40,338 bases of DNA, from the NCBI GenBank assembly GCA_947625635.1, contig CANQPA010000008.1, positions 1 to 40,338 on the forward strand. Direction: 5' to 3'. A model generated the notes under the pieces. That model was not told where the DNA came from, searched no databases, and saw only the letters and a list, made by a program, of their open reading frames with translations. Below, piece after piece: positions 3 to 40,308 of the stretch; the first letter of the stretch is position 1; each line of letters starts with the position of its first letter. The position numbers and the translations under genes are program-made. This DNA comes from an uncultured Bacilli bacterium. Lineage in GTDB: Bacteria; Bacillota_I; Bacilli_A; RF39; UBA660.

Positions 3-797
3 AGTTATAAGAATCATAAAGTTATACATAACGACCAAGAAGATTGGATTAGAGTAGAAAATACACATGAGAAAATAATTGATCCAGCTGATTGGTACGA
101 AGTACAGGATAGAATGAAACTAAAATCTCGTAGTACAAAAAAAGGTGTTATTCACCCATTTGCTAATAAAGTATTCTGTATGAAATGTAATCAAGTCTTT
201 TGCAAATGTGGAAAAAACAATCAAGACGGTCTAGGATATTTAGGGTGCAAAGACAGACGTAATAAATGGGTAAATTGCGACAATAGAAAATATTTAAAAG
301 AAAATGACTTTTATGAGTTTGTTATTGAAAAGATTAATATACTTCTTGATAAATTCTATAATGAAAAAGAGTTAAAAGAATTAGAAAAAAAAGATCCAGA
401 GAACAATTTATATGAAAGTAAAATTAATGGACTAGAAAAAGAGTTAAGTACTTTAACAAAGGAATTAGAAAATAAAAGTTCCTATTTATCTAAATTATAT
501 GAAGATCATTTTAAAGGAATACTTACAGAAAAAGAATTTATTACTTTAAAACTAAAATACAATGATGACGTTTCAAAAATTGAAAGTCGAATATCTAATA
601 TAAAACAAGATATTAATATTACTATTAAGAAAAAAGAATCTATAAAAGATAAGACAGAAATTATAAAGAAATATAAACATATTGATAAATTAGATATTGA
701 AATTGTAAATGATTTTATTGATAAAATATATATAGGCAATTATGATGAAGAACATAATACAAGAGAAATAAAGATAATATGGAACTTTACTATTTAA
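3..797 (+). CDS. Large serine recombinase of a neighbouring element, C-terminal part only (gene begins before the window)
   Basis: Frame is open from base 3 ([39 protein letters not shown]...) with Cys-rich zinc-ribbon [11 protein letters not shown]...GCKDRR followed by a long coiled coil, as in large serine recombinases. Confidence 0.8.
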
Positions 798-1518: not shown

Positions 1519-1545
1519 CCTAGGAGTTGAAACCTAGGATTTTCT
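1519..1545. terminator. Hairpin between convergent HNH and endolysin genes
   Basis: CCTAGG-AGTTGAAA-CCTAGG flanked by A-run on left and TTTTC on right. Confidence 0.5.
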
Positions 1546-1575: not shown

Positions 1576-2370
1576 TTATTCTACAAGTCCATATTTATAA
1601 CTACCTACAGTTACTTCTGCTAATTCATGCTTAATATAAATTTTTACTTTACCAAAATCACGTGTTTGTATCACTGCTGTAGTATTGTTATCACAGTATT
1701 GATAAATATAATAACTTAATCCGCCAAATTTTGAAGGTTTTAAATTACCTATTGCGTTTTTCTTAACTGGAGCATCACCCACTCTATAAAATGCCCACGT
1801 ATCTGCTTTAGGGGATAGATTAATATAGTTCCTTGTATCTCCAGTAGTTTGTGATATTTCTTTAGTATTTTTGAAATTATATCCTTTAGTATCCATAACA
1901 TGGTATGAATCATCTATAAATAAGCATTCAGAGACTTTCTTACTATTATTGATACTCCAATAACCAGCACTATTTTTGTGCCAACCAGTACCACTAAACT
2001 TACCTCTAGCACATTCAAAATGACAATGGTTACCTTGTGCGTTACCTTTTGTACCTTCTTCATAAAATCTCTGTCCTTGTTTTATCACTTGTCCTACTTT
2101 TAAGTTAGAAACGTCATTGTCATGGCAAAACAATATTGTCATATAATCAACTGTACCATCAGCAAATTGAACTTGGTTTGTACTTTCTAGCCAGACTTCA
2201 TTTCCATCAGATGTATAAATCTTCTTAATAACACCAGTAAAAGGTGCTACTAAATAATCTATACCTCCATCGCTTCCCGCCTCGTCAACCGCATAAGAAT
2301 CTCTATGACTTCCTACGTGGTCTGCTTGTGTTATCCTTATATAAGGACTAGGATACATCGCTTTTTCCAT
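1576..2370 (-). CDS. Endolysin, M23/LytM-type metallopeptidase with C-terminal wall-binding region
   Basis: SHRDSYAVD (HxxxxxxD), GNHCHFE (HxH); start MEKAMYPS with upstream GGAGG. Confidence 0.75.
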   Translation of the reverse strand: MEKAMYPSPYIRITQADHVGSHRDSYAVDEAGSDGGIDYLVAPFTGVIKKIYTSDGNEVWLESTNQVQFADGTVDYMTILFCHDNDVSNLKVGQVIKQGQRFYEEGTKGNAQGNHCHFECARGKFSGTGWHKNSAGYWSINNSKKVSECLFIDDSYHVMDTKGYNFKNTKEISQTTGDTRNYINLSPKADTWAFYRVGDAPVKKNAIGNLKPSKFGGLSYYIYQYCDNNTTAVIQTRDFGKVKIYIKHELAEVTVGSYKYGLVE

Positions 2371-2570
2371 TATTTGTCCTCCTCTCTTGTAATTCCTTTT
2401 ATTGCCCAAAATTGTGCCTCTTCTAATTTAGTAAAAACTAAAGATGTTTCCCTACTTGATTTAGTCAACTTTTCAATTGCATCATATAAATTAGAAAAAT
2501 ATAATCTTACCTTTTCTATCCTTTCTTTTTGTTCCTCATTTGTTTCTAAAAATTCTGCTCTTTTATTCAT
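2370..2570 (-). CDS. Acb2/Tad1-hairpin-like small protein (candidate cyclic-nucleotide sponge)
   Basis: KVRLYFSNLYDAIEKLTKSSRETSLVFTKLEEAQFWAIKGI; matches the remembered S-R-E-x-S-L-x-x-T-K-L-E-E-A-x-x-W-A signature of the family. Confidence 0.6.
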   Translation of the reverse strand: MNKRAEFLETNEEQKERIEKVRLYFSNLYDAIEKLTKSSRETSLVFTKLEEAQFWAIKGITREEDK

Positions 2571-2745: not shown

Positions 2746-3031
2746 TACTATCTACCTCACTTAGAATATAATTCTCACATAACTTTCTGGTATAACTATC
2801 ATACCCTTTGGATAAATATGCATCACATACTTCCGCTCTTTCTACTTTAGGTATGTCTCTATTCCAAATAATACTCTTTTGAGCAAGTTTAGTAGTTGAT
2901 TCTAATAATTTATTCTGATCGTTAAACCAAGTTCCCACTTTCCAAAATCCACCTAATAAAGTTACTAGGACTGATGCAAGTAAGGTTAGGTACTTCCAGT
3001 TCTTTTCTAGGTCTTTCATGAATTTATCCAT
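2708..3031 (-). CDS. Membrane-anchored lysis-cassette protein
   Basis: N-terminal TM YLTLLASVLVTLLGGFWKVGTWF; adjacent to holin. Confidence 0.45.
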   Translation of the reverse strand: MDKFMKDLEKNWKYLTLLASVLVTLLGGFWKVGTWFNDQNKLLESTTKLAQKSIIWNRDIPKVERAEVCDAYLSKGYDSYTRKLCENYILSEVDSNERNTTENIQTN

Positions 3032-3720
3032 TATTCTTCTCCTAATTCTGTAACTGTTACTATGTTAGTTAAGTTTGGAAACATTTTTTGTACTCTTTCT
3101 TTTTGTGTTTCGTCTTTAACTATAAATTTACAATTTTCTGGCACGTTAGACATCATACCACTAAACAGGATAACCTTAGTAAAATCTATATTTCTCATAT
3201 CCAATTCTTGTAAGCTTTTACAACTATAAAAACAAGAACTAAAATTAACACCAGTGTTACCATTTTTCCAACTACTCAAATCAATTTTTGTTAATTTACT
3301 ACACATATAAAACATTTGGTTTACATCTTCAACTTTTTCCATAGTCCAACTACTCAAATCAAGTTGTTGTAATGAATTACAACTCATAAACATACCATTC
3401 ATGTTAGTAACTAAATCTGTTTTCCAATTTTTTAAATCTAATTGTTGTAATTTACTACAGCTATAGAACATATTTTGCATATTGGTTAAATTAGAAGTAT
3501 CTAAATTTGTTACTTCTTCGTCTAATTCTGTACCAGTATAATTTTGAAAACTAATATATCTAGGTGCATATTTACTACCACCACTTATATCTTTTACTTT
3601 AGGTACTAAAGAAGTAAAGGTTTCTTCATCAGTTGCCTCTACTCCTTTTTCTTTTAGATTATTAACTAAATCTTGTTTATCTGTTTTTAATTGATTTAAT
3701 TGTTGCTCAATTGTTGCCAT
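3031..3720 (-). CDS. BspA-like leucine-rich repeat (DUF285-type) tail/receptor-binding protein
   Basis: Repeats LQQLDLKNWKTDLVTNMNGMFMSCNSLQQLDLSSWTMEKVEDVNQMFYMCSKLTKIDLSSW. Confidence 0.75.
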   Translation of the reverse strand: MATIEQQLNQLKTDKQDLVNNLKEKGVEATDEETFTSLVPKVKDISGGSKYAPRYISFQNYTGTELDEEVTNLDTSNLTNMQNMFYSCSKLQQLDLKNWKTDLVTNMNGMFMSCNSLQQLDLSSWTMEKVEDVNQMFYMCSKLTKIDLSSWKNGNTGVNFSSCFYSCKSLQELDMRNIDFTKVILFSGMMSNVPENCKFIVKDETQKERVQKMFPNLTNIVTVTELGEE

Positions 3721-24474: not shown

Positions 24475-24549
24475 TGGTACAGGATGAAAGAGTCGAACTT
24501 TCACTTGCTCGCGTATCAGACGAGTGTGTTACCATTACACCAATCCTGT
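24475..24549 (-). tRNA. tRNA-Ile (anticodon GAT), CCA encoded
   Basis: ACAGGAT-TG-GTGT-AATGGTA-ACAC-A-CTCGT-CTGATAC-GCGAG-CAAGT-GAAAG-TTCGACT-CTTTC-ATCCTGT-A-CCA: full cloverleaf. Confidence 0.85.
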
Positions 24550-32791: not shown

Positions 32792-33362
32792 TTTTACCTC
32801 CTATATCACTTAATTTTTTTATTATTTTACCTGCTTTTGACATTGGTAAATCTTCTATTTTATCTATTTTGTTTACCTCTAATAATTTTTTCATTGTAGC
32901 ACCTTTATAACGTGCTTTAATAATTGCTAATTGTTTTTCTGTTGCTTTTTTCTCAGTATCTTTTCCTACAGTAGAATCAAACATATCATTTTCAACAATA
33001 TCAAATGCTGCCATATATAAATATCTTCTTGAATATGTCTCTACTCCTCCTAATGCTTGAATCTCATTACATCCCTTTAGATTTATCTCTTTTAGTGGAC
33101 TTGAATACTCAATTGTTGAATTAATATTATTTGTATCTGTTATCGTAAGTATTGCAAAATCATTTGTAAAAGTTATTCTAGTAAATAAACCCACTTCGTT
33201 ACATAAGTTAATCAATGTTGGTAGGAAATCTGATAACTCATAATATTTAAAGTTTGAAAATTTATTTTCGCCACTTTTTTTTAAATTTGCTTGTAAAAGT
33301 TTTTGTTTTACTACTTGTATTTTTTCATAAATGTTTGCTTCGTAAATATTTGTTGTTGTCAT
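32778..33362 (-). CDS. erf: ERF-family single-strand annealing protein
   Basis: SNFKYYELSDFLPTLINLCNEVGLFTRITF...CNEIQALGGVETYSRRYLYMAAFDI. Confidence 0.85.
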   Translation of the reverse strand: MTTTNIYEANIYEKIQVVKQKLLQANLKKSGENKFSNFKYYELSDFLPTLINLCNEVGLFTRITFTNDFAILTITDTNNINSTIEYSSPLKEINLKGCNEIQALGGVETYSRRYLYMAAFDIVENDMFDSTVGKDTEKKATEKQLAIIKARYKGATMKKLLEVNKIDKIEDLPMSKAGKIIKKLSDIGGKNGTN

Positions 33363-34171
33363 TATTCAGAACCCCCTAGTAGTCCTGTTATGTCAAATAT
33401 TGAATTACTACCACTTGCTTTAGGTAATTCTCCATTCCATTTTTCTATAAATTTTTCTTTTATGATATTATCTGTTAAAGTTTGTTGTTTTAATTCATTT
33501 GCTTGTTTTTCTGCCTCGGCTTTAACTATTTTCTTTTCTGCTTCTATTTTTTCTTTCTCAAGTTCTTGTTTGGCTGTTAATACTTTTTGTTCTGCTACTT
33601 GTTTCTCTTCTATTGCTTTATCAAAGTCCTTGCTAAATGTAAAATTAGTAATATTAAAGTTATCTACTGTCAAACCATATCTTTTGATTTTACTTTGTAG
33701 ATTTTCCATACACTCGTTACTTACTTGCCCTCTATTAGTAATTAATTCTTCTGCGGTATATTTACTTGTTACCGCTTTAATACTTTCTTGAATGGCTGGT
33801 TGTAATATTATTTCTTCGTATTTTGTTCCAACATTTTTATAAAGATCTGCTGCTTTTTTTGAATTTATTTTATAATTAACTGCAAGTTTCATATTTACAT
33901 CTTGTAAGTCTTTACTAGCACTTGTTGTATCTAATTCTATCTTTTGAACTTGTATATTCATTTTCACTATTTTTTCTATTAAAGGAATTTTTATGTTAAC
34001 TCCTTCATCTTTTTGTACTTGAATTACCTTTCCTAATCTGACTTTAATTCCTACTTCACCACTTTTTATAATTCTGAATGTTCCACTAAATAAAAGTAAA
34101 ACTAAAATCACTGCAATTATAATAAAAACTTTTTTTTGCAAATTTTCTGTGTTTTTAATCTCTTCTATCAT
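33362..34171 (-). CDS. SPFH/prohibitin-family membrane protein
   Basis: TM then GTFRIIKSGEVGIKVRLGKVIQVQKDEGVNIKIPLIEKIVKMNIQVQKIELDTTSASKDLQDVNMKLAVNYKI, long coiled coil. Confidence 0.85.
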   Translation of the reverse strand: MIEEIKNTENLQKKVFIIIAVILVLLLFSGTFRIIKSGEVGIKVRLGKVIQVQKDEGVNIKIPLIEKIVKMNIQVQKIELDTTSASKDLQDVNMKLAVNYKINSKKAADLYKNVGTKYEEIILQPAIQESIKAVTSKYTAEELITNRGQVSNECMENLQSKIKRYGLTVDNFNITNFTFSKDFDKAIEEKQVAEQKVLTAKQELEKEKIEAEKKIVKAEAEKQANELKQQTLTDNIIKEKFIEKWNGELPKASGSNSIFDITGLLGGSE

Positions 34172-38856: not shown

Positions 38857-38949
38857 TATAACAAAGATATAGGGTTTTCCTAACCAATGATATAGGAGTA
38901 TTTCCTTTATCATTATATCATAATTTTAATTAGAAAGAAAGTGATATAC

Positions 38950-40308
38950 ATGATGAAAAGTGTAAAGAAAATTATTAGAGTTGTTTTATATATACGTGTG
39001 TCTACCGAAGAACAAGTAAGGCATGGTTACTCAATAGAATCACAACTAAAACGACTGAAAGAATATTGTAAACTTCACGGTTATAAAATAGTGGCAATTT
39101 ATATAGATGCTGGTAAGTCGGCTCGTACTAAATTAAGTCAAAGAAAAGAACTTTTAAGATTACTTAATGATGCTCAAGAAGGAAAATTTGATCGTGTTGT
39201 ATTCTGGAAATTAGACAGATGGTTTAGAAATGTTTCTGATTATTATGCAATAAATAGTATCTTAGAAAAATGCAACGTAGATTGGGAATGTAGTGATGAA
39301 AAATTCAATACAACTACTTCTAATGGTAGATTATATTTAAATATCAAATTGTCAATCGGTCAAAATGAATCAGATGTTGATAGCGATAGAATTAAATTTA
39401 TCTTTAGTCAAATGATAAAAGATAAAAAAGCAATTTGGGGTACAAATAATTGCCCTCTGGGGTATAAAGTAGTAGGCTCTAAAAAGAATAAAAGAGTAAT
39501 AAAAGATAAACGTACTTCTGATATAGTAGAGTTTATATTTAAAACTTATGTAATTAATAATTCATATCGTAAAACCGCCTTTTTAGTACAAAATAAATTC
39601 GATTATATAATAACTTCTGATACTATTAAAAAAATGTTGAAAAACACTTTATATTATGGTGTTTATAGAGGTGTAGAAGGATATTGTGAGCCTTATATAA
39701 CTAAAGAGAAATTCGATTATATACAAAACTTATTACCTAAAAATAATAAACAAAATAAAAATCGCGATTATATATTTTCTGGTCTAATTGTATGTAAGCA
39801 TTGTGGTTGTAAAATGTCTGGTACTTTTACAAAAAATAAAAAGTGTTATAGATGTGGTAAATATAAAAATTATAGAACTTGTACTAACTCCAAAATAATT
39901 CCAGAAAGTAGATTGGAAGAATACTTATTAACAGAGTTTCCACACTTAAAAAGAGTGTCTATGCAAGAATCCGAGATAGAAGAAGGCATAGATTTTGATA
40001 AAAAACTAAAACAGTTAAATGTAAAACTAGATCGTTTGAATGAAATGTACTTAAATGATAGAATAAACAGAGAATCATACTATAAAAAGTATGATGAAAC
40101 TAAAGTTCAAATAAATGATTTAGAAAAACAAAAAAAGAAATCAAAAAAACCTAAAGAGATAATAAAATTAAATGTTAATTTTTATAAACTCTATAATAAA
40201 CTTGATGATGAGCACAAAAGAAGTTTTATTAATAAATATATTGATTATATTGAATATGATAGTGAAAAAGATTTATTCGACGAAAGAATAAATATTATTT
40301 TGAAATAG
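38950..40308 (+). CDS. Large serine integrase of the prophage
   Basis: RVVLYIRVSTEEQVRHGYSIESQLKRLKEYCKLHGY...FDRVVFWKLDRWFRN; zinc ribbon CKHCGCKMSG...CYRCGKYKNYRTCTNS; coiled coil. Confidence 0.95.
   Translation: MMKSVKKIIRVVLYIRVSTEEQVRHGYSIESQLKRLKEYCKLHGYKIVAIYIDAGKSARTKLSQRKELLRLLNDAQEGKFDRVVFWKLDRWFRNVSDYYAINSILEKCNVDWECSDEKFNTTTSNGRLYLNIKLSIGQNESDVDSDRIKFIFSQMIKDKKAIWGTNNCPLGYKVVGSKKNKRVIKDKRTSDIVEFIFKTYVINNSYRKTAFLVQNKFDYIITSDTIKKMLKNTLYYGVYRGVEGYCEPYITKEKFDYIQNLLPKNNKQNKNRDYIFSGLIVCKHCGCKMSGTFTKNKKCYRCGKYKNYRTCTNSKIIPESRLEEYLLTEFPHLKRVSMQESEIEEGIDFDKKLKQLNVKLDRLNEMYLNDRINRESYYKKYDETKVQINDLEKQKKKSKKPKEIIKLNVNFYKLYNKLDDEHKRSFINKYIDYIEYDSEKDLFDERINIILK

Follow-up and report, generated by a model that had tools for sequence, protein, structure and literature searches.

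The window analysed here, a stretch of 40,338 nucleotides, is a prophage carrying genes for a terminase, a P22-like portal protein, ERF, SSB and a serine recombinase, and it sits in a 1.3-Mb draft genome that is about 90% complete. The genes of its lysis region, together with other features observed along the window, are listed in Table 1.

Table 1. Lysis-region features and further observations in the window
Feature	Position	Strand	Basis or remark
Serine-recombinase gene, C-terminal part	3-797	+	Such genes lie at both window ends
Terminator-like hairpin after the endolysin gene, possibly bidirectional	1519-1538	-	Consensus scan
Endolysin, M23-peptidase-like, 264 aa	1576-2370	-	PF01551, phrog_9066, phrog_5182; start within the hairpin-gene stop codon
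66-aa protein of the Acb2/Tad1-hairpin family; putative sponge for cyclic nucleotides	2370-2570	-	PF24729, phrog_1454, AF2 model, BFVD
Holin-like membrane protein, 60 aa	2563-2745	-	phrog_13256 (E=3.8e-9), hydrophobic segment, place before endolysin
Lysis-region protein, 107 aa	2708-3031	-	One hydrophobic N-terminal segment
DUF285/BspA-type leucine-rich repeat protein	3031-3720	-	PF03382; gene immediately precedes the lysis genes
Unusually long protein, 2293 aa	5952-12833	-	Structural region; possibly internal or ejected protein
tRNA-Ile (GAT)	24475-24549	-	Within the prophage
SPFH/Band 7 protein	33362-34171	-	PF01145 (E=4.5e-36); early region, adjoining the ERF recombinase; unusual cargo for a phage
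Serine-recombinase gene, full-length	38941-40308	+

The open reading frame of the hairpin protein runs from an ATG at 2570 to a TAA ending at 2370 and is translated as MNKRAEFLETNEEQKERIEKVRLYFSNLYDAIEKLTKSSRETSLVFTKLEEAQFWAIKGITREEDK. Its stop codon shares 1 nt with the endolysin start (TAATG; TAATGG in the sequence), its own start lies inside the 3' end of the upstream 60-aa ORF with an overlap of 8 nt, and good Shine-Dalgarno sequences precede both the hairpin gene (AAAGGTGG) and the endolysin gene (GAGGAGG). The overlap with the endolysin start, described in an earlier note on this DNA, was confirmed from the ORF coordinates and the sequence. The same note had placed the ORF after a holin. 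An ORF with one hydrophobic segment does lie there, and its homologues occupy the same place in L009/L045; its identity as a holin is putative, phrog_13256 being of unknown function. The endolysin was recognised through weak matches to PF01551 (E=1.4e-4, below the cut-off) and to the endolysin families phrog_9066 and phrog_5182. For the 107-aa protein, no Pfam match and only a weak phrog match were obtained.

A simple scan for minus-strand promoter-like sites between the holin-like and endolysin genes found none, and the terminator-like hairpin would mark the end of the late/lysis unit. Given the tight packing of the genes, the terminator after the endolysin and the lack of an internal promoter-like site, the hairpin gene is most likely transcribed as part of the late unit. 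Gene order, overlaps and terminator support the earlier proposal that it is expressed late, along with the lysis genes. Nei-Gojobori comparison with relatives gave pN of 0.11-0.23 against pS of 0.53-0.83, from which we conclude that the ORF is a gene under strong purifying selection.

The 66-aa protein matched the Pfam family PF24729 (Acb2/Tad1 hairpin) with E=1.7e-11 and 44.6 bits, the curated gathering cut-off being 27 bits, and phrog_1454 with E=9e-13. The SRE..L..TKLEEA..WA signature reported for it is present, and these two matches place the resemblance far beyond chance. All 38 members of alignment A1 (the 66-aa protein and 37 homologues) also matched PF24729, and a search of the PDB with the A1 profile retrieved 'Acb2 homolog 43' (9ptq) with E=5e-6 and Tad1 chains with E=0.01, the latter over the SRE..EEA..W stretch. 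The SRE, TKLEEA and W positions were nearly invariant in the family alignment, and R22, E41, E50, E51 and W55 were invariant in the aligned members, whether linked to lysis genes or not. Position 7 was aromatic (F/Y) in 44 of 48 members, the N-termini not being alignable residue by residue to T4 Acb2. No model matching the protein was found in NCBIfam or PADLOC.

The AF2 model of the protein (pLDDT 89) contained a short helix at residues 3-5 and long helices at 12-35 and 40-61. This topology, a short N-terminal helix followed by two long antiparallel helices, is that described for Acb2, which combines a short N-terminal helix with a helical hairpin (PMC12043709). Among the viral models of BFVD, the top 17 matches were nearly all Acb2/Tad1 hairpins, with TM up to 0.94. 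In the fold comparison against the PDB, T4 Vs.4 ranked first with a weak match of a generic hairpin kind (E=0.76, TM 0.53-0.55), as is expected for a bare hairpin. The AlphaFold comparison proposed in the earlier note bore out the hairpin topology and the likeness to viral models, whereas the match to a solved Acb2 was not significant. Taken with the PF24729 profile and the profile matches to solved Acb2 and Tad1 chains, the model comparison supports the identity put forward in that note.

The best relative found was the PF24729 member with UniProt accession A0A8S5NKU4 (Siphoviridae sp. ctiJI15), about 60% identical, which has length, fold and the SRE..TKLEEA..W motif in common with the 66-aa protein, differs from it in nothing essential and is already annotated as an Acb2/Tad1 hairpin. 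The Acb2 proteins (T4 Vs.4, Pseudomonas phage Acb2 7uq2, and 9ptq) share the N-terminal helix and helical hairpin, an aromatic residue in the N-terminal region and the TKL.EA motif, but they are 76-94 aa long against 66 aa here, their identity to it is low, and Phe82 of T4 is replaced by Thr. Tad1 (7uav, 8kbb) has the SRE..EEA.MW motif of its C-terminal helix in common with the protein but possesses an N-terminal beta-sheet domain; membership of Tad1 was ruled out, the 66-aa protein being a hairpin only, without that domain. The resemblance to the Acb2/Tad1 hairpin is genuine, and public annotation already shows it; the protein is a new member of this known family, not a new family.

Acb2 proteins form hexamers that soak up cyclic di- and trinucleotides (PMC12043709; PMC12657218), and a sponge role for the 66-aa protein is probable by family membership. 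The conserved N-terminal aromatic and motif positions, the purifying selection and the Tad2-like neighbours of relatives speak for such a role. T4 Acb2 binds its ligand through Tyr8, and its Phe82 stacks the ligand (PMC12657218). In a phmmer alignment Phe82 fell on Thr61, with the chain numbering apparently offset by one; the ligand of the 66-aa protein may therefore differ from that of T4 Acb2.

The genomic setting of the family was examined in 57 dereplicated contexts, with endolysins labelled manually on the basis of Pfam matches and inspection of the sequences. In 18 of them the first or second gene downstream of the hairpin gene encodes an endolysin. Random placement in a phage of 40-55 genes would give 2-3 endolysin-adjacent cases, with a binomial p of about 1e-10 to 1e-12, a rough value in view of the incomplete independence of the contexts and the manual labelling. 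The partner endolysins belonged to at least seven catalytic types (GH25, M23, Amidase_2, Amidase_3, CHAP, glucosaminidase, C39-like, M15). Lysis-linked copies were scattered over the tree, with the conserved residues as in copies elsewhere. On this poorly resolved tree the lysis label changed 12 times, against a mean of 13.6 after shuffling, and a single origin of the lysis placement is thus unsupported.

Relatives of the endolysin were fetched from the host order (19 loci, 55-71% identical). A small membrane-type gene abutted or lay near the endolysin in 18 of these loci, and the hairpin gene was absent from the junction in all 19. The nearest relative, L095, carries between the membrane-type gene and the endolysin a DUF4406 gene, at positions 1200-1499 in reverse-complement coordinates. 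Since the related endolysin loci do without the hairpin gene, the slot is optional cargo space, and the hairpin gene is most readily understood as an optional anti-defence cargo gene of the late operon rather than as one for a lysis protein. The earlier suggestion that the protein is carried forward as a lysis-coupled protein found no backing: its sequence bears no sign of secretion or packaging, the site is optional, and in most relatives the gene lies elsewhere. A search of viral contigs with the window's own endolysin returned nothing. No paper treating Acb2 together with holin and endolysin turned up in the literature searched, and the repeated use of Acb2/Tad1-hairpin genes as optional lysis-cassette cargo seems to have been little noticed.

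We consider it likely that the 66-aa protein is a minimal Acb2-type signal sponge, carried as accessory cargo of the late operon and taking no part in lysis. In keeping with this, 5 of the 146 genomes of the host order contain CD-NTase genes and 14 contain genes for ThsB-type TIR proteins. We infer the following oligomer, ligand, timing and benefit. The protein would assemble into a small oligomer that would bind and sequester immune signals, either the cyclic di- or trinucleotides that CBASS or type III CRISPR uses or the ADP-ribose-type signals of Thoeris, and abortive-infection effectors would then not be triggered before burst. Through its position at the holin/endolysin junction it would be expressed at the time of the structural and lysis genes, which is when defences that sense virion proteins would fire. 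That several defences sense such proteins would be a plausible reason for the late placement; for Thoeris ThsB1, recognition of a major head protein has been reported (PMC12043709).

The translational coupling of the gene between holin and endolysin, and the adjacency to an endolysin in 18 of 57 contexts, would also fit a lysis-timing factor, either a soluble antiholin or an endolysin partner, in which the fold has been reused for another job. However, about two thirds of the contexts lie elsewhere (portal/capsid, near the terminase, or among early genes), at least seven unrelated endolysin types make a specific partner unlikely, the lysis copies form no clade and keep the same residues, and 18 of the 19 related endolysin loci do without a hairpin gene, one carrying DUF4406. 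The optional site and the varied endolysin partners rule out lysis as the main reading, and we regard such a role as highly improbable.

Somewhat less improbable, though still unlikely, is that this member of the hairpin family has lost signal binding, or that its target in the host has nothing to do with nucleotide signals. The Thr in place of Phe82 of T4 Acb2 would be in keeping with this, as would the failure to find matching defence genes in the host: the draft genome, which is about 90% complete, yielded no SMODS CD-NTase and no ThsB TIR. Against it stand the strong purifying selection on the gene, the invariant motif and the Tad2-like genes (PF11195) beside relatives, the last seen near hairpin homologues in six distinct contexts.

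A further family, DUF6275 (PF19791), was a neighbour of the hairpin gene in 12 distinct contexts, of which two belong to lysis cassettes. It was observed next to the hairpin gene in L014, L022, L024, L025, L027, L042, L045, L066, L068 and L069. In an independent search of the host order, DUF6275 and PF24729 occurred together in three genomes against 0.24 expected (p=0.001), directly adjacent in two of the three. In Microbacterium phages, one collinear slot with flanking proteins 30-68% identical was occupied either by the hairpin gene (Alex44, ArMaWen) or by DUF6275 (Phedro, Morrill); the corresponding pair in L086 and L090 is Alex44 gp51 (hairpin) and Phedro gp50 (DUF6275). In Lactococcus and Enterococcus phages DUF6275 lies between the minor capsid and scaffold genes, a place also taken by the hairpin gene in L006/L017-type phages, where these identities are judged from gene order and sequence. 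The AF2 model of DUF6275 (pLDDT 91) consists of a helix and a four-strand sheet; the PDB contained no sequence match and no convincing fold match, the best Foldseek hit being a designed protein with E=0.06, and the family was not mentioned in the literature searched. We regard DUF6275 as a promising candidate for an anti-defence family not described so far; it might be a nucleotide-signal sponge or enzyme.

DUF4406 is nucleoside 2-deoxyribosyltransferase-like, and was also observed at the holin/endolysin junction or beside the hairpin gene in L014, L016, L025, L067, L069 and L070. Homologues of Tad2, DUF6275 and DUF4406 were not found in the window. As a tentative and somewhat doubtful proposal, the holin/endolysin junction of Firmicutes phages may be a recurrent exchange slot for a small set of anti-signal cargo genes (Acb2-hairpin, Tad2-like, DUF6275 and DUF4406), with DUF6275 acting in anti-defence interchangeably with the Acb2 hairpin.

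With this protein, PF24729 gains a member from a little-studied gut lineage with small genomes, although the arrangement of the neighbourhood may be more interesting than the family membership. That the hairpin gene appears repeatedly as optional cargo in late lysis operons suggests selection for expression timed with the virion and lysis proteins. Lysis junctions could be searched for anti-defence genes not yet recognised, with DUF6275 and DUF4406 as the first candidates.
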